Assembly: GCA_947644695.1 (NCBI GenBank)
Contig: CANSAJ010000005.1
Span: forward strand, 1 to 64,000
From: an uncultured Bacillota bacterium
Lineage (GTDB): Bacteria; Bacillota_I; Bacilli_A; RF39; UBA660
Length of the DNA: 64,000 nt
Direction of reading: 5' to 3'
The first letter of the stretch is position 1. Every line of letters begins with the position of its first letter. This document shows, one piece after another, positions 3,163 through 33,368 of this stretch. The notes under the pieces were generated by a model. That model was given only the letters and a program-made list of their open reading frames with translations, did no database searches and was not told the origin of the DNA. A program made the position numbers and the translations under genes.

Positions 3163-4434
3163 TTATGCTGCTAAATATTCTTCAAATTTATTTACTATTT
3201 CTTCTTCCATCTTAGTAGTAACTCTTACATAAATATTATAAGTAAATTCTACTGTACTATGTCCTAATCTTTTTGATACTGCTTTTATATCTGCACCTGC
3301 TTCAATCAGCCTTGTTGCGTGAGTATCTCTAAAATCGTGAAATCTACCTTGTATTCCTAATTGATAGTGAATTACTTTAAATGCGTGTTTACAACTATCT
3401 GTTCCTTCAAATATACCATTATCTTTTAAAAATACCAAGTGTGCTTCTGGTAATGCAACATCAATTTCAGCATAGGCATTAACTATTTTTGTCTCTGGTT
3501 TCTTAGTATATGGATTTTCTACTATTTTCTTATAATGTTTCATATACATATCTCCATACATTTCCTTAAATATTTCTTGCTCTTCTTTATATTTTTTTAA
3601 TGCAGCTACAAGTGTATCTCCTATATCTATTGTTCTATAACTATTAGCTGTTTTACATGTACCATAATACCATACTGTAGTAGAATTTCCACTTATATGC
3701 CTTTTTTTAGTACCACCTGCCTGATTTTTTTTAACAATATTTCTTCTAACGTGGATTTTTTTATTTTCTAAATCTATATCTTCCCATGTTAGTCCAAATA
3801 CTTCAGATATACGAAGCCCAGTATGATATGCAGTTAAAAACGCATAATAAACACAATGATTATTCTTAACACTATTAAATATTAAGTCTATTTCTTCCTT
3901 AGTAAAAATATGTACTGGATCTCCATCTGGCTCATCATACTTTGGAACTTTAACCTTTATGGAAGGATCATATTTTATAAAATTTACTATTTCTGCTGCA
4001 TAATCAAAAGAAGATTTTATAACTTTAAGTATACTCTTCATATAACTTTTTGCAAAACCTCTTTCGACATATATATCATTTATTGCTTCTTGTATTGTTG
4101 CTGTTGTAATTTGTGATATTCTATACATTCCTAATCGAGGTTTTAAATGATTTTTAATAATATACTTATAAGTTTCAATGGTTCTATGCTTTAGATTTAT
4201 ATAACAATACTCTTCCATCCAATAATCTAAATAATCACTATATGAAATTTCTGAAGGTTTAAAACTATGACCTGTTTCTAAATACTCATTAAGTGCTTTC
4301 AACCCTTCTCTTTCTGCTTCTGGTTTTGTTTTAAAACCAGACTTTGTTATCCACTTTCTTTTTCCGTCTTGGGGAGCTATTTCAAACGTATATTGATAAT
4401 ACTTCCCTCTTTTTTTTATTTGTACTTTTACCAT
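3163..4434 (-). CDS. int: Tyrosine recombinase / integrase
   Basis: A 423-aa site-specific integrase. The N-terminal part (residues 5-55, strands with KYYQYTFEI...KRKWITKSGFKT) is the arm-site DNA-binding domain of Tn916/phage-type integrases. It is followed by a SAM-like core-binding domain (about 62-160) and the catalytic domain. Catalytic residues are visible: Arg208 (TGLRISEV), Lys261, His366 and Arg369 (HDFRD), His392 (LGHS) and Tyr402 (YNIYVRV). The length is normal and nothing is missing, so it should be active. Its 5' end faces the end of secA across 256 nt that carry inverted repeats, so the element boundary and attachment site probably lie there. The other boundary is outside the window. 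Confidence 0.92.
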   Translation of the reverse strand: MVKVQIKKRGKYYQYTFEIAPQDGKRKWITKSGFKTKPEAEREGLKALNEYLETGHSFKPSEISYSDYLDYWMEEYCYINLKHRTIETYKYIIKNHLKPRLGMYRISQITTATIQEAINDIYVERGFAKSYMKSILKVIKSSFDYAAEIVNFIKYDPSIKVKVPKYDEPDGDPVHIFTKEEIDLIFNSVKNNHCVYYAFLTAYHTGLRISEVFGLTWEDIDLENKKIHVRRNIVKKNQAGGTKKRHISGNSTTVWYYGTCKTANSYRTIDIGDTLVAALKKYKEEQEIFKEMYGDMYMKHYKKIVENPYTKKPETKIVNAYAEIDVALPEAHLVFLKDNGIFEGTDSCKHAFKVIHYQLGIQGRFHDFRDTHATRLIEAGADIKAVSKRLGHSTVEFTYNIYVRVTTKMEEEIVNKFEEYLAA

Positions 4435-4690: not shown

Positions 4691-7183
4691 CTATTTACCA
4701 CAACAATTTTTATATTTCTTACCTGAGCCACAAGGACAACTATCATTTCTTCCAATCTTATTCTCAACTTTTTTAGGAGATTTTTTAGAAGATTCTTTAG
4801 AATCATTGGTCTGCGCATTCTTAACTTCTTCACGTTCAAGATTTTGTCTTACTTCTGCTTTTAACAAATAAGTAGTCGCTTCTTTATTAGTATCTCTTAA
4901 CATACTATCAAAAAGTTCAAAACCTTCTAATGCATATGCTTGTAAAGGATTTGTCTGTGCATAACCTCTTAACCCTATACCTTCTTTTAAATGCTCCATA
5001 TTATCCAGCTGTTCCATCCAGTTCTTATCAAGAACCTTTAATGTTATAGCTTTTTCAAAATCATTCTGAATATCCTCTGGAACTTCCTTAAGCTTCTCAT
5101 TATAATCATCTACTACTACATCATAAATAAAATTCTGTATTTCATCTATCTCTTTTCCTTCCAAAGATTTTTCATCTAACTTTCTAGTTTTAAGTAAATT
5201 AGCGTTAAAATACTCGCACATATTTACTATATCATTATGAGTTAAAGCATCTTCTGGAGGAAAATGTGCATTAACTTCATCTATTACAAAATCTTTAAAA
5301 ATACTTAAAATTCTATCTCTAATACTTTCTTTATCTAAAATTTCATTACGTCTTTCATACACGATTTCTCTTTGCTTACTAATAACATTATCATAATCAA
5401 GTAAAGCCTTACGTCTATCATAGTTAAATCCTTCAACTCTTTTTTGACTACTTTCAATATTCTTACTCATCATTTTATGAGTGATAGGAGTATCTTCAGT
5501 AAATCCCAAAGTTTTCATCAAGCTTTTAATTTTATCACTACCAAATTTCATCATTAAATCATCTTCCATTGAAATATAAAATCTAGTAACACCAGGATCT
5601 CCTTGACGACCACTTCTACCTCTTAACTGATTATCAATACGTCTGCTTTCATGCCTTTCAGTTCCTATAACAACTAAACCACCTAATTCTGCAACACCTT
5701 CACCTAATTTAATATCTGTTCCACGTCCTGCCATGTTAGTAGCGATAGTAACAGCACCTTTTTGACCAGCCTGTTCTATTATATGCGCTTCTCTTTCATG
5801 ATTCTTAGCATTTAAAAGCTCATGCTTAACATTTCGTTTCTTTAATAAATTACTAAGAACTTCTGAACTCTCAATAGAAGCTGTTCCCACTAAAATTGGT
5901 TGCCCTGTTTTATGTATTTCTTCTATTGTATTAGCAATAGCATTATATTTACCTCTCATATTAATATAAATTAAATCTTCCATATCATTTCTTAAAATAG
6001 GCTTATTAGTAGGTATTTCTATAACATACATATTATAAATATTTCTAAATTCTTCTTCTTCAGTTTTTGCAGTTCCTGTCATTCCAGCAAGTTTATTATA
6101 CATTCTAAATAAATTTTGAAAAGTAATTGTTGCTAATACTTTAGTCTCTTCATTTATATGCACATTTTCTTTAGCTTCAAGAGCTTGATGCAAACCATCA
6201 CTATATTGCCTTCCATACATAAGTCTACCTGTAAATGAATCTACAATAACAATCTTATCAGAATCTACAACATAATCCACATCTTTTTTAAAACCATAAT
6301 TTGCTACTAATGCCTTATCCAAATTATGAACCATAGAAGCATTTTTAATATCATATAAATTCTCTAAATTCAATAATTTTTCACATTTCTTAATACCATC
6401 TTCTGTCAAAGTAACACTTCTAGTTTTCTCATCTAAAACATAGTCATCTACCTTCAAAGATTTAGCAGTTTTATCAGCTAACTTATATAAATCTGCACTT
6501 TTACTTATTCCTCCACTAATAATAAGTGGTGTTCTAGCCTCATCAATTAATATAGAATCCACTTCATCAATAATTGCAAAATTAAGTGGTCTTTGAACTC
6601 TATTCTCAGGTCTAACAACCATATTATCTCTAAGATAATCAAACCCAAGTTCATTATTTGTAGTATAAGTTATATCTTTACTATAAGCTTCTCTTTTCTC
6701 CTTAGTAGAAGATTCTTTTCTATTAACTCCCACACTTATTCCAAGATAATCATATACCTTACCCATCCACTCTGCATCACGCACGCTTAAATACTCATTT
6801 ACTGTAACAATATGTACACCTTTTCCACTTAAAGCATTTAAATATGCAGGTAATGTACTAGTAAGTGTTTTACCTTCTCCAGTTTTCATCTCAGCTATAT
6901 TACCATAATGAATACAAATTCCACCTATAATTTGCACCTTATAAGGTTTTTCACCAAGTACTCTATAAGCAGCCTCTCTTACAACTGCAAAAGCTTCAAC
7001 TAAAATATCATCTAATGTTTCACCTTCGCTAAGTCTTGATTTAAATTCACCTGTCTTAGACTTAAGCTCCATATCCGTCATCTTAGTCATTTCATCATCT
7101 AATAATAAAACTTGTTCAGCTAATGCATCAAATCTTTTTAATTCTTTATATTCATGATCAAACAATCTTGTTAGTATTCCCAT
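4691..7183 (-). CDS. secA: Preprotein translocase ATPase SecA
   Basis: An 830-aa motor ATPase that drives secretory preproteins through SecYEG at the membrane. Walker A is seen at about residues 99-107 (MKTGEGKTL) and the DEAD-like Walker B in the DEVDSILIDEARTPL stretch near residue 205. The preprotein cross-linking, helical scaffold and wing regions follow in the usual order. The C-terminus is a zinc-binding SEC-C motif (CPCGSGKKYKNCCGK). The start ATG follows GGAGATGAAAAT. In many Firmicutes prfB follows secA; here the mobile element's integrase end lies immediately downstream and prfB is 50 kb away. Confidence 0.98.
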   Translation of the reverse strand: MGILTRLFDHEYKELKRFDALAEQVLLLDDEMTKMTDMELKSKTGEFKSRLSEGETLDDILVEAFAVVREAAYRVLGEKPYKVQIIGGICIHYGNIAEMKTGEGKTLTSTLPAYLNALSGKGVHIVTVNEYLSVRDAEWMGKVYDYLGISVGVNRKESSTKEKREAYSKDITYTTNNELGFDYLRDNMVVRPENRVQRPLNFAIIDEVDSILIDEARTPLIISGGISKSADLYKLADKTAKSLKVDDYVLDEKTRSVTLTEDGIKKCEKLLNLENLYDIKNASMVHNLDKALVANYGFKKDVDYVVDSDKIVIVDSFTGRLMYGRQYSDGLHQALEAKENVHINEETKVLATITFQNLFRMYNKLAGMTGTAKTEEEEFRNIYNMYVIEIPTNKPILRNDMEDLIYINMRGKYNAIANTIEEIHKTGQPILVGTASIESSEVLSNLLKKRNVKHELLNAKNHEREAHIIEQAGQKGAVTIATNMAGRGTDIKLGEGVAELGGLVVIGTERHESRRIDNQLRGRSGRQGDPGVTRFYISMEDDLMMKFGSDKIKSLMKTLGFTEDTPITHKMMSKNIESSQKRVEGFNYDRRKALLDYDNVISKQREIVYERRNEILDKESIRDRILSIFKDFVIDEVNAHFPPEDALTHNDIVNMCEYFNANLLKTRKLDEKSLEGKEIDEIQNFIYDVVVDDYNEKLKEVPEDIQNDFEKAITLKVLDKNWMEQLDNMEHLKEGIGLRGYAQTNPLQAYALEGFELFDSMLRDTNKEATTYLLKAEVRQNLEREEVKNAQTNDSKESSKKSPKKVENKIGRNDSCPCGSGKKYKNCCGK

Positions 7184-7252
7184 ATTTTCATCTCCTAAAA
7201 GTATTTTATCAAATTTAAATGTTTTTTTAAACTTTATTTAATATAAAAACAC

Positions 7253-7281
7253 AAAAAGTAAATTCTAAGAACTTACTTTTT
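7253..7281 (-). terminator. Terminator of hpf
   Basis: A 9-bp stem (AAAAAGTAA / TTACTTTTT) with an 11-nt loop overlaps the hpf stop codon. The leftward transcript ends in TTTTTGTGTTTTT. Confidence 0.65.
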
Positions 7282-7798
7282 AATTGGTTTCAATAACACC
7301 ATATTTATCATCATATCTTTTATAAATAACATTTACCTTTTCTGTATCTATATCTTTATATATATAAAATGAATGTCCTAAAAGTTCCATTTGAACAATA
7401 GCCTCATCTTCATCCATAGGTTTTAAATAAACTTTTTTTCTTTTTACTATGCTTTCAAATGTCTCTTCGCTATAATCATCATCTTCATAAACTATTTCAA
7501 CTCTTTCTTTAGACATCAATTTTGATTTATATTTCTTTACTTGAGATTCTAATTTATCTAAAACTAAATCTATAGCTGCATACATATCACTATGAGATAC
7601 TTCTGCTCTCAAATCATAATTTTTACATACAATTGTAACCTCTACTTTTTGCTCTCTTCCTCTAATACTAAAAAGCACTTTCACTTGAACTTCATCTGGA
7701 TTATCAAAATACTTCTCCATTTTAGAAATCTTATCAATTGCATATTCTCTAATAGAATCAGTAACATCTAATTTTTCTCCACGAACTGTAAATTTCAT
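7280..7798 (-). CDS. hpf: Long-form ribosome hibernation promoting factor
   Basis: A 172-aa protein with the N-terminal ribosome-binding HPF/RaiA domain (residues 1-100: MKFTVRGEKLDVTDSIREYA...) and the C-terminal dimerisation domain found only in the long form (about 115-172: KVYLKPMDEDEAIVQMELLG...). Long HPF pairs 70S ribosomes into inactive 100S dimers in stationary phase. The start ATG has an AGAGGTGAT ribosome-binding site. It lies between csp and secA, and hpf-secA adjacency is common in Firmicutes. A terminator separates it from secA. Confidence 0.95.
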   Translation of the reverse strand: MKFTVRGEKLDVTDSIREYAIDKISKMEKYFDNPDEVQVKVLFSIRGREQKVEVTIVCKNYDLRAEVSHSDMYAAIDLVLDKLESQVKKYKSKLMSKERVEIVYEDDDYSEETFESIVKRKKVYLKPMDEDEAIVQMELLGHSFYIYKDIDTEKVNVIYKRYDDKYGVIETN

Positions 7799-7840
7799 AT
7801 CATCACCTCTAGTTTAATTCTAACACAATAAAAAGAAAAA

Positions 7841-7858
7841 AACTACTAAACAGTAGTT
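7841..7858 (-). terminator. Terminator of the cold-shock gene
   Basis: AACTACT / AGTAGTT stem with a 4-nt loop, then TTTTTTTCTTTTT in the leftward direction. The csp stop codon is inside the hairpin. Confidence 0.75.
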
Positions 7859-8070
7859 AATTTTACTTCTTTGACATTTATAGCTTGATTGCCTTTAGCT
7901 GTTCTAATTAAGGTAAACTCAACAACATCACCTTCGCTAAGAGACTTATAACCTTCTTGCTCTATTGCTGAATAATGAACAAATACATCCTCGCCTTCTC
8001 CAGCACCTATCTCAATAAATCCATAACCTTTTTCATTATTGAACCACTTAACTCTGCCTTTTCTAGTCAC
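7846..8070 (-). CDS. csp: Cold-shock protein, CspA family
   Basis: A 74-aa single cold-shock domain with both RNA-binding motifs visible: RNP1 (KGYGFIEI) and RNP2 (DVFVHYSAI). It acts as an RNA chaperone. A GTG at 8079 would add three residues but overlaps the GAGAGG ribosome-binding site, so GTG 8070 (8 nt spacing) is chosen. About 280 nt separate it from the divergent agrB. This spacer includes TCGG...CCGA, a short inverted repeat at 8131-8151, which could sit in a long csp leader, as is usual for cold-shock mRNAs; that is speculative. Confidence 0.93.
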
Positions 8071-8353
8071 ACTTAACACCTCTCTTCCATACCTCTATAT
8101 TAAAACACGCGCATGTTCTAATCAAATTAAATCGGGTCAAAAATTCCGACATATTTTTTAACATTACAATCATACTAAAAATTAACTATAATTAGTAAAC
8201 ATATGCATTAAATATCTAATTTTTTGTTTTAAATGGAATTAACAATGTAAAAATAAGATCTTTTTTCTTTTTTAAACAAAAAAACACGAAAAAAAGACAA
8301 AAAATAATAAAAAAGCTAAATAAAAAATTATAATGGTCTCGGAAGTGGTAAAA

Positions 8354-8962
8354 ATGAAAGATCTTTTAATAAATTCCGCTATGAACAATATTGAAAAATA
8401 TTGTAATTATGATAAAGTAAAACTCAAAGAAATTAGGTATGGATTATCCAGTTTATACCTTACAGTAACTAAAACTATCGTAATATTTGGTATATCATAT
8501 ATATTGGGATATATAAAACCGCTTCTACTATTAATGGCCCTCTATAGTATACTAAGACTTACTGGGTTTGGTGCACATGCTAAAAAAAGCTGGCACTGTT
8601 GGATATCATCATTATTGGTATTCTTAATATTACCCTACTTATGTACAATTCTAATTATAGACTATAGAGTTAAAGTTACATTAGGTATTATTTGTGTAAT
8701 TTTATTAGGATTTTTCGCACCTGCAGATACGGAAAAAAGACCATTAATAAACAAAAAAAGGAGAATAGCTTATAAGATAATCAGTGTATTAATGGGATTA
8801 TTATATATAGTATTATTCACCTTTATAAAAGATAACACATTAAACAATTGCATTTTATTCGGACTAATAATAGAAACTTGTGTTATTTTACCAATAACTT
8901 ATAAAGTATTTGGTTTAAAATATAATAACTATAAAACTTATAATTTAAATAAAAAAGAATGA
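8354..8962 (+). CDS. agrB: AgrB-type autoinducer peptide-processing protease
   Basis: A 202-aa polytopic membrane protein with about six hydrophobic segments. The AgrB signature is visible: a conserved His in GFGAHAKKSW and the nucleophile Cys seven residues later (SWHCW), the pair that cleaves AgrD and forms the thiolactone. The length fits the family (about 190-205). The reading frame opens at ATG 8333, but GGAAGTGG at 8341-8348 positions initiation at ATG 8354. It is followed after 14 nt by a 39-aa AgrD-like peptide gene, with the kinase and regulator genes convergent downstream, forming a full agr locus. Confidence 0.92.
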   Translation: MKDLLINSAMNNIEKYCNYDKVKLKEIRYGLSSLYLTVTKTIVIFGISYILGYIKPLLLLMALYSILRLTGFGAHAKKSWHCWISSLLVFLILPYLCTILIIDYRVKVTLGIICVILLGFFAPADTEKRPLINKKRRIAYKIISVLMGLLYIVLFTFIKDNTLNNCILFGLIIETCVILPITYKVFGLKYNNYKTYNLNKKE

Positions 8963-8976
8963 AAGGAGATTAAAAA

Positions 8977-9096
8977 ATGAAATTATTTGCTACATTAACA
9001 GGATTTTTAGGAGAACTAGTTGCTAAAACTACATCAGGAGCTTGCTGGTTTAGCTATTTCGACGAAGAAGAAATGCCTGAAAGTCTTTTAAAATAA
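8977..9096 (+). CDS. agrD: AgrD-type cyclic (thio)lactone autoinducer precursor
   Basis: A 39-aa precursor. It has an N-terminal amphipathic leader (MKLFATLTGFLGELVAKTTS), a central SGACWFSYF segment with the single Cys at residue 23, and an acidic C-terminal recognition tail (DEEEMPESLLK) that closely parallels the DEVEVPKEL tail of S. aureus AgrD. By that alignment AgrB would cleave before the DE pair, giving a ring C-W-F-S-Y-F, or C-W-F-S-Y if the ring has the usual five residues. AAAGGAGAT lies 6 nt upstream of the ATG. The peptide is too short for routine gene finding. Confidence 0.92.
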   Translation: MKLFATLTGFLGELVAKTTSGACWFSYFDEEEMPESLLK

Positions 9097-9126
9097 AAAT
9101 TAAATTTATTATTACTACCTTTAAAT

Positions 9127-9147
9127 ACCCTAGTCATTGGCTAGGGT
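9127..9147. terminator. Bidirectional terminator between agrBD and agrAC
   Basis: ACCCTAG / CTAGGGT stem with a 7-nt loop, followed rightward by TTCTTTATTTTT. The agrC stop codon lies within the hairpin, so it serves both convergent operons. Confidence 0.8.
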
Positions 9148-10441
9148 TCTTTATTTTTAAAACAGTTATAAATCTATTATTTTCAATATGTTGATTAAAA
9201 TCTAACAAATCTGTATCTTCAAGTAATTTACTAACAATATACAAACCATATCCACGATTATCACCTTTACTTGAAACACCTTTTAAATGAATATTATTCA
9301 GGTTTATAGAATTTTCAAAACTATTTTCTATATAAATTACTAATCCACCGTCATAATAAATATCTATCAATAATAACCTATCTTTTGCAATCGATGCTGC
9401 TTCGATAGCATTATCTATGACTATTCCTAATATTTTACATACTTTAAAATACAATTTTTGATTTAATTTATCAAAACTTTCTTCAATATTTGGAGCACTT
9501 AACAAAGTTAAATTAATATCATTTTCATGAATGCTAGCAATTTTATAATAAATAATACCTTTAATTCCAGATGGCAATTTATGTAAATTAGAAAATAATT
9601 GATATTTATTACTTCCTTGATAGGTATGCATAATTTCATCTAATGTCTCTTCATATTCAACTGAAGACTTATCTTTAAAACTTTTCAATATTACTAAATT
9701 ATTTAAAATTTCATGTCTGTTTATTCTCTCATTATCTAATAGTCTTTCATAATCACTCATTAAATTTAATAAAACTTTCTGTTCTTCTTCACTACTTTTA
9801 TTCTTAAAATATTGAACGATCATCACCACACATAAAAATAAGAAAAAAGAAATTAATAACATAGAAAATAAAAAGACATCTACACTTAAAACAAAAGCAT
9901 TTAAATGAGTAATCATTAAAAACACTAAGAATGCAAATAAAGAGCCTATCAAAAATACATAACTCCATTTTTTATTCAAATAACCTATCATTCTATTTAT
10001 AAAGACCCTAAACTTTTTAAATAAAAAGATAAATATTAAAATTAATGAAACTAATATAGTATTTAACCCTCTAACATAAGTTATACTTTCTAATATCAAA
10101 GAAGCATCTACTACATTAAATAGAAAAATAACAGCTAATAATGCATCACATAGTGATAATATTACATAAATAATAAAAATTTTAAAAAGTAATATATTAA
10201 TATTTTCTCTAAAGAAGAAATAAAATAAGAACAAAACCACAAGAAAAGAAACCATAAAATTAAAAGGAGTATCTAAAGAATAATTAGCTGTATAGGCAGC
10301 TAAAGACATAAAGAACACAACAAAAATATGAGAAAGATTTATATTTAATTTCTTATTAGTTGTAAGAGAATATACTATTACAAATGCACATAGATTAAAC
10401 ACTATTGCTAAATAAGATAAAATTGCATTAAATAACACCAC
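9134..10441 (-). CDS. agrC: AgrC-type sensor histidine kinase
   Basis: A 435-aa receptor kinase of the HPK10 (GHKL) type. Six or so membrane helices fill residues 1-212. The phospho-acceptor is His243 (INRHEILNNL), followed by the N box (DNAIEAAS, 343-350) and the G box (KGDNRGYGLYIV, 392-403). The family senses secreted cyclic peptides. The start is GTG 10441, overlapping the agrA stop by 14 nt, implying translational coupling. The gene is convergent with agrBD. The cognate signal is almost certainly the peptide of the adjacent agrD (inference from locus structure). Confidence 0.92.
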   Translation of the reverse strand: MVLFNAILSYLAIVFNLCAFVIVYSLTTNKKLNINLSHIFVVFFMSLAAYTANYSLDTPFNFMVSFLVVLFLFYFFFRENINILLFKIFIIYVILSLCDALLAVIFLFNVVDASLILESITYVRGLNTILVSLILIFIFLFKKFRVFINRMIGYLNKKWSYVFLIGSLFAFLVFLMITHLNAFVLSVDVFLFSMLLISFFLFLCVVMIVQYFKNKSSEEEQKVLLNLMSDYERLLDNERINRHEILNNLVILKSFKDKSSVEYEETLDEIMHTYQGSNKYQLFSNLHKLPSGIKGIIYYKIASIHENDINLTLLSAPNIEESFDKLNQKLYFKVCKILGIVIDNAIEAASIAKDRLLLIDIYYDGGLVIYIENSFENSINLNNIHLKGVSSKGDNRGYGLYIVSKLLEDTDLLDFNQHIENNRFITVLKIKNPSQ

Positions 10442-11144
10442 TTTCGCTCAACTCCTTCTTGTGTGTCTTCGATAGAAAGTGTGCCTCTTTTCCATTATCA
10501 AAAATTATTTTACCTTCACTCCACACATATGCATCTACTCTTTTAGTATTAACTATACAAGCTTTATGAGTAAAGACAAAATCATCATTCAACATTTCTT
10601 TAACTTTAATTAAATTTAAAGATACTTTATATTCATTTTTATCAGTCACTATTACGCTTTTTCTTTCAACTGTATCTTTATAAATATAAAGTATTTTATC
10701 AAAATCTATACTATAATCTACTTTACCTATTTTATATTTAAAATTTTCTCTAACATTTAATTGCTTTAAACAAATATCGAATAACTCATGCAAATTCTTT
10801 TCAGCTTCAAACTGTTTATTAACAAAATCTAAAATTTGTAATCTTTGTTTAAACGTATCATATGCCATACCACCATTAACAGTAAAAATTATTATAGGAC
10901 TTATCCAGTCCTTCTTTCTAATTCTTCTAGCTACTTCTATAGCTGTTGTGTTAGGAAGTTCAAAATCTAATATATAAATATAATTAGAATCATGATTCTC
11001 TACTAACTCTATAAAAGTATCAGTTTCCCTTTCAAAAAATAAAATATCAAACTCATACTTATTTTTCATCATATAATTGAAGATAATATCCTTTGCTTTC
11101 TTTCTATGATGTGGATTATCCTCTAAAACAATAAAATTAATCAC
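10428..11144 (-). CDS. agrA: AgrA-type LytTR response regulator
   Basis: A 238-aa regulator with a receiver domain (residues 1-125; acidic Glu8/Asp9, phospho-acceptor Asp60 in YILDFELP, Lys near 114) and a C-terminal LytTR DNA-binding domain (about 140-235, ...FVFTHKACIVNTKRV...). It is transcribed before agrC in one unit, agrA-agrC, the reverse of the staphylococcal agrC-agrA order. Targets are not visible with certainty: I found no convincing pair of AgrA-type direct repeats upstream of agrB. Confidence 0.92.
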   Translation of the reverse strand: MINFIVLEDNPHHRKKAKDIIFNYMMKNKYEFDILFFERETDTFIELVENHDSNYIYILDFELPNTTAIEVARRIRKKDWISPIIIFTVNGGMAYDTFKQRLQILDFVNKQFEAEKNLHELFDICLKQLNVRENFKYKIGKVDYSIDFDKILYIYKDTVERKSVIVTDKNEYKVSLNLIKVKEMLNDDFVFTHKACIVNTKRVDAYVWSEGKIIFDNGKEAHFLSKTHKKELSESGVI

Positions 11145-11221
11145 TAAAAACCAACTCCATTACTTTTAAAATTATAATAACATCTAAAATTAAAAGATAA
11201 CAGGGAGCACTAGGTCCAATT

Positions 11222-11470
11222 TTAGAAATTTTTAAATTTTTTTCTTGTAGCTTCTCCACCATGAATGTGCCTTACTTTAACATGATCATTCATAATATTA
11301 TGAACAAGTAAATACCTTTCATAATCTAAAAAATAAAGTCTTTCATTAATATCTTTATGAACACTACTTTTACTACAATTAAAAACATTAGCAACTTCCC
11401 TAATAGTTTTATTAGTTTCTATAATATAATCTGAAATTTTAAATACTCTCTCTTTTATAGCATTATTTAT
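11222..11470 (-). CDS. spoIIID: Sporulation regulator SpoIIID, apparently with an ATA start
   Basis: Residues read N-N-A-I-K-E-R-V-F-K-I, then HTH TIREVANVFNCSKSSVHKDI (22-41), then VRHIHGGEATRKKFKNF, matching Bacillus SpoIIID almost end to end (82 aa against about 93). No ATG, GTG or TTG exists in frame between an upstream TGA (11479-11477) and the HTH. The codon aligned with the SpoIIID methionine is ATA at 11470-11468, with GGGGG 10 nt upstream. SpoIIID is the mother-cell DNA-binding regulator acting with sigma-E. It follows spoIID and spoIIQ, the normal order. Identity is sure; initiation at AUA is inferred. Confidence 0.88.
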   Translation of the reverse strand: MNNAIKERVFKISDYIIETNKTIREVANVFNCSKSSVHKDINERLYFLDYERYLLVHNIMNDHVKVRHIHGGEATRKKFKNF

Positions 11471-11520
11471 ATTAAATCAACCCCCAATAAATATATGCTT
11501 AAAAATTTAAAACATGAAAA

Positions 11521-11543
11521 AACTAACCAATTAATAGTTAGTT
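11521..11543 (-). terminator. Terminator of spoIIQ
   Basis: AACTAAC / GTTAGTT stem with a 9-nt loop followed leftward by TTTTTTC. It overlaps the spoIIQ stop, so spoIIID probably needs its own promoter. Confidence 0.7.
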
Positions 11544-12209
11544 TCCTAAATCCTTTAAATTTAATTTGTAAAAGTTTTCTGGATCCATTAAAGAACCTTT
11601 ATAATAAACTTCAAAATGTAGAGAAGTTGAATAATTAGAATTAATTGAAGATGTACCACTTGTACCTATAACTTGTCCTTGTGTTACAGTATCTCCAACT
11701 TTTAAATTAACTTTATCTATACCTTGATAAACAGTTATTAATTCTTTATCATGTTCCACTTTTACAACATTTCCTAAAATTTCATCAGTATCTACACTTA
11801 ACACTTTACCATTTAGTACACTTACTACATCAAATACTGTCTCACTAATATAATCGACTCCTGAATTTTGCATATAAGTATTTTCATAGTAAATTATAGC
11901 ATTTTCTTGATTTTTAGCCTCTGCTTCAAAATCATAGAAATATCTACCTATTGTAACTTTATCAGACTTATATGGTCTTATTATTTCATTTGGATTAGTA
12001 GGTGTAGTTGTATTATCATTATTATCACTTCCTTGAACTGGAACCGAGTCTTCATCTATTAATCCATTTACACTATAAGTAAAATCTTTCTTTTCAGTTA
12101 AATATTTATTTATGCTAGTAATTGTAAGCACAATACATGCTATAACAGAAATTACGGAAATTAAATACACCCCTGGCACAAACAATTTCTTAACATTTAA
12201 ATTTTTCAT
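11538..12209 (-). CDS. spoIIQ: Stage II sporulation protein Q (degenerate M23 domain)
   Basis: A 223-aa forespore membrane protein with one N-terminal transmembrane helix (residues 10-32), a polar Asn/Thr/Pro-rich linker, and a LytM/M23 domain (about 105-215). The metallopeptidase motifs are broken: GVDYISETVFDV replaces the HxxxD motif, and SLHFEV replaces HxHFE. This is the state of Bacillus SpoIIQ, which works as a structural partner of mother-cell SpoIIIAH across the septum instead of as an enzyme. It lies directly downstream of spoIID, the conserved order. Confidence 0.9.
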   Translation of the reverse strand: MKNLNVKKLFVPGVYLISVISVIACIVLTITSINKYLTEKKDFTYSVNGLIDEDSVPVQGSDNNDNTTTPTNPNEIIRPYKSDKVTIGRYFYDFEAEAKNQENAIIYYENTYMQNSGVDYISETVFDVVSVLNGKVLSVDTDEILGNVVKVEHDKELITVYQGIDKVNLKVGDTVTQGQVIGTSGTSSINSNYSTSLHFEVYYKGSLMDPENFYKLNLKDLGN

Positions 12210-32833: not shown

Positions 32834-33292
32834 TTACATTTTTCTATAGATTCTATCAGCTAAAACTGCACTAAGTCTAGATGCTTTTAAATACTGATTA
32901 TTAAAACTATAAAATGAAACAGGAACTTCCATGTTATATCCATTCCTAAATCTCACAACAGTAGCTCGTTTTTTGTTCTTACATGGATAAAAATCTATAA
33001 TATTGTTATAACTTATCCACAATGTATCTTTTTTATATATAGATGATATAGGAAAAAATACTAACCTTGATGATTCCTCAATAACTATAGGTGTTTTATA
33101 TTTAGACTTAATAAATTTCTGACTGCCTTCTATCCTAGATCTATAACTAACCCCAAAATACTCACAGCTATGTTCAATGACTTTATAAGACGACTTATCT
33201 ATATCATAAGTTTGATCTTCTTCTACTATCTGGCATTGATAATCATCAATTGGAACTAATGCTAAAGTTTTTTCATTAACCTCGTAATTCAT
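32834..33292 (-). CDS. comK: ComK-family competence regulator
   Basis: A 152-aa protein that aligns along Bacillus ComK: start YEVNEKTLALVP, core HSCEYFGVSYRSRIEG, then KTPIVIEESSRLVFFP, WISY, and FRNGYNMEVPVSFYSFNNQYLKASRL. ComK binds A-box/T-box promoters as tetramers and switches on DNA-uptake genes. This version lacks the roughly 40-residue C-terminal tail through which Bacillus ComK is bound by MecA. It sits between dnaN and recF, where Bacillus has yaaA. Family identity is well supported; a role in competence is inferred. Confidence 0.85.
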   Translation of the reverse strand: MNYEVNEKTLALVPIDDYQCQIVEEDQTYDIDKSSYKVIEHSCEYFGVSYRSRIEGSQKFIKSKYKTPIVIEESSRLVFFPISSIYKKDTLWISYNNIIDFYPCKNKKRATVVRFRNGYNMEVPVSFYSFNNQYLKASRLSAVLADRIYRKM

Positions 33293-33368
33293 ACTCTCCC
33301 TCCTTTCTTAGCTCGATATAATAACACACTTGTTTGTCGAATTTTGTCATATCCTGTCGAAAAAATAA

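Follow-up and report, generated by a model that had tools for sequence, protein, structure and literature searches.

The window analysed here, a stretch of 64 000 nucleotides from an uncultured Bacillota bacterium, carries an agr-type locus whose signal genes run rightward and whose sensing genes run leftward, with a cold-shock gene (csp) on the agrB side. From left to right, its features are as follows.

7841-7858, minus strand: intrinsic terminator at the csp 3' end, at the same position in 8/8 loci of the genus
7846-8079, minus strand: csp, cold-shock RNA-binding protein (PF00313, E 9.5e-26), proposed as a second AgrA target
8144-8151, strand unassigned: Spo0A-box-like TTCCGACA, a recurrent motif between the leftward -10 and csp
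8169-8174, minus strand: -10 hexamer TATGAT of the predicted leftward promoter to csp, at offset 29 from O1
8203-8235, minus strand: predicted operator O1 (EM model), two 12-bp half-sites 21 bp apart with their sense leftward, CATTTAAAACA / TATTTAATGCA
8268-8300, plus strand: predicted operator O2, sense toward agrB, of low score in the window and in the correct register
8329-8334, plus strand: -10 hexamer TATAAT of the predicted agrBD promoter, at offset 29 from O2
8354-8962, plus strand: agrB, membrane cysteine peptidase predicted to process and cyclise AgrD (PF04647, E 3.7e-30)
8977-9096, plus strand: agrD, signal precursor MKLFATLTGFLGELVAKTTSGACWFSYFDEEEMPESLLK, whose single Cys is residue 23 (TIGR04223)
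9127-9147, plus strand: intrinsic terminator of agrBD, with the agrC stop codon (9134-9136) inside the hairpin
9134-10441, minus strand: agrC, membrane sensor histidine kinase of the GHKL type (PF14501)
10428-11144, minus strand: agrA, response regulator with a LytTR DNA-binding domain (PF04397 and PF00072)
11145-11221, minus strand: promoter region of agrAC; TTGGACCTA and TCCCTGTTA are conserved in the genus alignment, and the -10 is TATTAT

Profile searches placed AgrB, AgrD and the GHKL, LytTR and receiver domains each above its curated cut-off, and the matches here are the sole ones for AgrB, AgrD and LytTR found in the 1.25-Mb genome. AgrB scored 104-105 bits against PF04647 (cut-off 23) and AgrD 29 bits against TIGR04223 (cut-off 19); the Pfam AgrD model, which is staphylococcal, gave the latter 16.4, below its cut-off of 22.7. 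AgrD adjoins agrB and follows the expected precursor plan of an amphipathic leader, a Cys core and an acidic tail. Matches to the NCBIfam staphylococcal AgrC and AgrA equivalogs fell under their cut-offs, which puts the window proteins outside the staphylococcal subfamily. Residues H75 and C82 of AgrB (numbered from 8354), seven residues apart, are invariant in 88/88 aligned homologues, while H243 and D343-N344 of AgrC (84 sequences aligned) and D9, D60 and K110 of AgrA (82 sequences aligned) are near-invariant. The agrB start at 8354 is the likely one, because the conserved -10 hexamer at 8329-8334 overlaps the first in-frame ATG at 8333. On the other arm, agrA lies 5' of agrC and both genes start with GTG. 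An agr-type quorum-sensing locus with convergent arms, in which agrA precedes and overlaps agrC, had been proposed in the initial annotation; all four gene families with their catalytic residues, the coordinates of the two arms and the 14-bp overlap at 10428-10441 bear this out, and the locus is evidently real and complete.

The layout was compared across 80 agrB loci of the family to which the bacterium belongs, drawn from about 60 genera; 77 of the loci were informative in that agrC or agrA was present on the agrB contig. AgrB homologues occur in 8/9 genomes of the genus and in 183/291 sampled family genomes. In every one of the 77 informative loci agrBD faces agrA-agrC, while the convergent layout was absent from about twenty agrB loci taken from weak members of the family or from other families in its class; among the non-family loci fetched, the Listeria-like ones are co-directional agrBDCA. 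We take the convergent layout to be an old, family-wide trait rather than a local oddity. The genes secA-hpf-csp are usually found on the left of family agr loci, and spoIIQ-spoIID on the right in the genus and in some other genera. Close to secA, the window holds a phage-type integrase gene (3166-4434, minus strand). Elsewhere in the family, seven loci (L063, L082, L089, L092, L100, L107 and L127) have at least two agrC-like genes beside a single agrB, and the extra copies are possibly receptors for foreign peptides. In the open-licence literature we found no report of quorum sensing in this family, and open-licence papers yielded no description of the convergent layout, the ring size or the paired operators as family traits.

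The single Cys at AgrD residue 23 that had been noted initially is seen in the translated precursor, and the claim that the peptide is new is also supported. The predicted core is CWFSYF, running from Cys 23 to Phe 28 and followed by DEEE. Cys plus five residues precede a conserved acidic pair, mostly in the context DEP or DEE, in 71/78 family AgrD precursors; of the remainder, five have Cys plus six, one has Cys plus four and one (L123) has no Cys. In S. aureus, AgrB cleaves AgrD directly ahead of the acidic pair. This cleavage site, taken with the conserved position of the DE pair, favours a six-residue ring, CWFSYF, over CWFSY; both had been put forward initially, and the shorter is now disfavoured. 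The AgrD of L123, in which Ser replaces Cys (STASAWLLLDEP), predicts a lactone rather than a thiolactone. Published agr rings mostly have five residues, with six in C. acetobutylicum and nine in E. faecalis (PMC4916163, PMC10301443). Among 65 family loci we counted 63 distinct six-residue rings, a natural library for work on ring-receptor specificity.

Between csp and agrB lie two mirror-image LytTR-type operators, O1 and O2, each a 21-bp direct repeat; this pair was overlooked in the initial annotation. The first motif searches upstream of agrB returned the start codon and Shine-Dalgarno sequence and then a Spo0A-box-like motif, and were superseded by a paired model. Self-similarity upstream of agrB is highest at exactly 21 bp (z 4.6), and an EM model with a doubled half-site scored 279 at that spacing versus 61-119 at 13 other spacings. 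The half-site in its sense (minus-strand) orientation is CATTT(C/A)AGACA, which we take to resemble the AgrA ACAGTTAAG and ComE ACANTTCAG sites. A LytTR repeat is itself 9 bp long. Since the gap between such repeats is roughly 12 bp (PMC6193735), the sum fits the 21-bp spacing seen here. AgrA-type direct repeats ahead of agrB, a mark of membership of the agr group, are present as computationally predicted sites.

Strong O1 sites lie mostly 146-162 bp 5' of the agrB start, and the one in the window is the genome's best match to the genus consensus. A leftward TAnnWT follows O1 at offset 29 in 28/43 loci and at offset 30 in 13/43, against no more than 8/43 for any rightward offset. O2 was found by scanning the other strand with the model built on O1 alone: it scored above 3 in 40 loci versus 6 shuffled, most often at positions -83 to -98, with a score of only 0.9 in the window. 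The agrBD -10 stands at offset 29 from O2 in 22/38 loci (control at most 8/38), and its TATAAT is identical in 9/9 aligned loci. The -10 hexamers played no part in finding either operator, and each operator is 28 bp away from its hexamer (offset 29). The starts of O1 and O2 are 64-66 bp apart in 25/26 loci, and 65 bp in the window. By the same model, O1 is missing in about half of the loci (42), which may reflect either altered sequence or true absence; a separate motif search of these 42 gave nothing specific at spacing 21, and a different class of operator in them was rejected on that result. A scan of the genome gave no second strong operator, the other pattern matches having three mismatches and lying mostly inside reading frames. 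In another genome (G235), a perfect O1-type repeat stands upstream of a sugar-transferase gene cluster (L189, 2512-2600), and a second pair in the opposite direction may come after it.

The sensing arm has a different kind of promoter. In the genus alignment, no AgrA-type repeats were found in the region upstream of agrA (11145-11221), so autoinduction is predicted for the signal arm alone. Beyond this region lies a SpoIIID gene (11222-11476, minus strand; PF12116, 6e-25) that lacks any ATG, GTG or TTG from the preceding stop up to the conserved start region, and most genus loci with an agrA-spoIIQ junction have too little room for SpoIIID there. Within the genus, the N-terminal sensor half of AgrC is 29-47% identical to that of the window and the kinase half 50-67%, with AgrB at 67-78% and AgrA at 72-93%; a fast-changing receptor is the usual agr pattern. 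Partial Mantel correlations of ring with receptor were 0.098 for the sensor half versus 0.107 for the kinase half, small and nearly equal values that do not separate covariation of ring and sensor from shared descent.

Where the two arms meet, the initial annotation had placed a shared bidirectional terminator. The hairpin at 9127-9147 is present, and two-way terminators were predicted in 43/69 family loci (0-2 for either strand in shuffles). In the window itself, the U-tract is on the plus strand only; with a weak tail on the minus strand (AUUUAAAGG) and a hairpin that contains the agrC stop codon, this terminator is strong in one direction only. A terminator follows agrBD in 58/69 loci, with one on the minus strand in 44/69. 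These numbers bear on whether convergence is a regulatory device in which read-through of each arm gives antisense to the other. Such a device would accord with the convergence kept in 77/77 informative loci and with the weak minus-strand terminator of the window, but the agrBD and agrAC genes do not overlap, and the frequency of terminators on both strands suggests that selection blocks read-through. We regard it as most improbable, since terminators separate the arms, and the antisense proposed initially does not sit well with non-overlapping genes and an intrinsic terminator after agrD. A further element, TTACTACCTTTA, follows agrD at 9108-9123 (plus strand) in all genus loci examined and is absent from the sister genus. 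It is anti-Shine-Dalgarno-like, and the agrB leader is a possible pairing partner; as an RNAIII-like part in the agrBD 3'UTR it was set aside as genus-restricted.

An RNAIII effector within the locus was rejected, as an Rfam search of 7000-11600 returned no RNAIII match, nor any other save a sub-threshold match to cspA. The gene csp adjoins agrB in most family loci, and the leftward promoter on the O1 side reads into it. Binding of AgrA to O1 and O2 is our inference, as is the role of csp as true output. The box at 8144-8151, TTCCGACA, is a putative Spo0A site; with Spo0A encoded in the genome, sporulation state may feed into csp. A second promoter nearer the csp start may also drive the gene.

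Genes, catalytic residues, layout, repeats, repeat spacing and the fixed distance to the -10 hexamers are read directly from the DNA. Our main reading, to which we give a probability of about two in three, is that of a working agr-type circuit whose form has become fixed in a single family of gut Bacillota with small genomes. AgrB would cut AgrD before DEEE and close a Cys23-Phe28 thiolactone, giving the ring CWFSYF; the exported cyclic peptide would activate AgrC; and phosphorylated AgrA would bind the LytTR repeats of both mirror-image operators in the csp-agrB interval. Binding at O2 would raise agrBD, and thus autoinduce the signal, while binding at O1 would raise a csp mRNA of about 340 nt. 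As this mRNA would be driven from O1 and end at its own terminator, the cold-shock RNA chaperone would be the direct output of the circuit. That the whole family shares this split design, in which divergent AgrA promoters couple a six-residue signal to csp mRNA and the sensing arm stays outside the feedback loop, is a more tentative proposal, with somewhat less than an even chance of being right.

Two other readings concern what AgrA regulates. Both operators could serve agrBD only, in tandem or looped, leaving the leftward -10 as an AgrA-independent csp promoter. The housekeeping type of the csp gene, the Spo0A-like box with another possible promoter nearer csp, and a place beside agrB that could be due to synteny are all compatible with this, but the sense of O1 faces csp and the offset to its -10 is identical to that between O2 and the agrBD hexamer; on balance we find it unlikely, if well worth keeping in mind. 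Much less probable is that the circuit times competence through comK, as the initial annotation had suggested. It had correctly reported comK (32837-33292, minus strand) and a sporulation-type background, with Spo0A, SpoIID, SpoIIID and SpoVT encoded, but no AgrA-type operator was found upstream of the window comK, where two Spo0A-box-like TGTCGAA sites (33335-33361) stand instead, and an AgrA-comK link in this genome was rejected. No clear operator was seen in the other comK upstream regions tested either, and 22/36 family comK genes are preceded by Spo0A-like boxes. Against this, another genus has two species (L241, L197) in which an AgrA-type pair in sense orientation precedes comK, its -10 at offset 28-29, so an AgrA-comK link may hold for other members of the family. 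A pattern match before comK in G174 (L171) proved correctly oriented and recurs in a second species of that genus.

If the split design with csp as a target is right, the position of RNAIII would be taken by the mRNA of an RNA-binding protein, which would carry the quorum output in place of a regulatory RNA, and csp beside its mirror-image promoter offers a concrete candidate for that output. The resemblance to S. aureus agr extends to the AgrB, AgrD, AgrC and AgrA families, to LytTR repeats with 21-bp periodicity and, for the sites predicted here, to divergent AgrA-type promoters upstream of agrB in the manner of P2 and P3. However, S. aureus has a single agrBDCA operon, whereas agrAC is convergent and order-reversed in the window, and the window sensing arm lacks AgrA-type repeats; the S. 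aureus ring has five residues rather than the predicted six, and in place of RNAIII the divergent transcript would be csp mRNA. The closest non-family AgrB in a search of genome contigs was that of Listeria grayi (L009; 30% identity), but Listeria and its relatives (L009, L143, L144, L147) have a co-directional agrBDCA and a five-residue ring. C. acetobutylicum also shares features of the plan: its agrBD and agrCA form separate operons, and its ring has six residues (PMC10301443, PMC4916163). There agrC precedes agrA, the reverse of the window order, a LanM-like effector gene lies downstream, and the text consulted describes no convergent arms.
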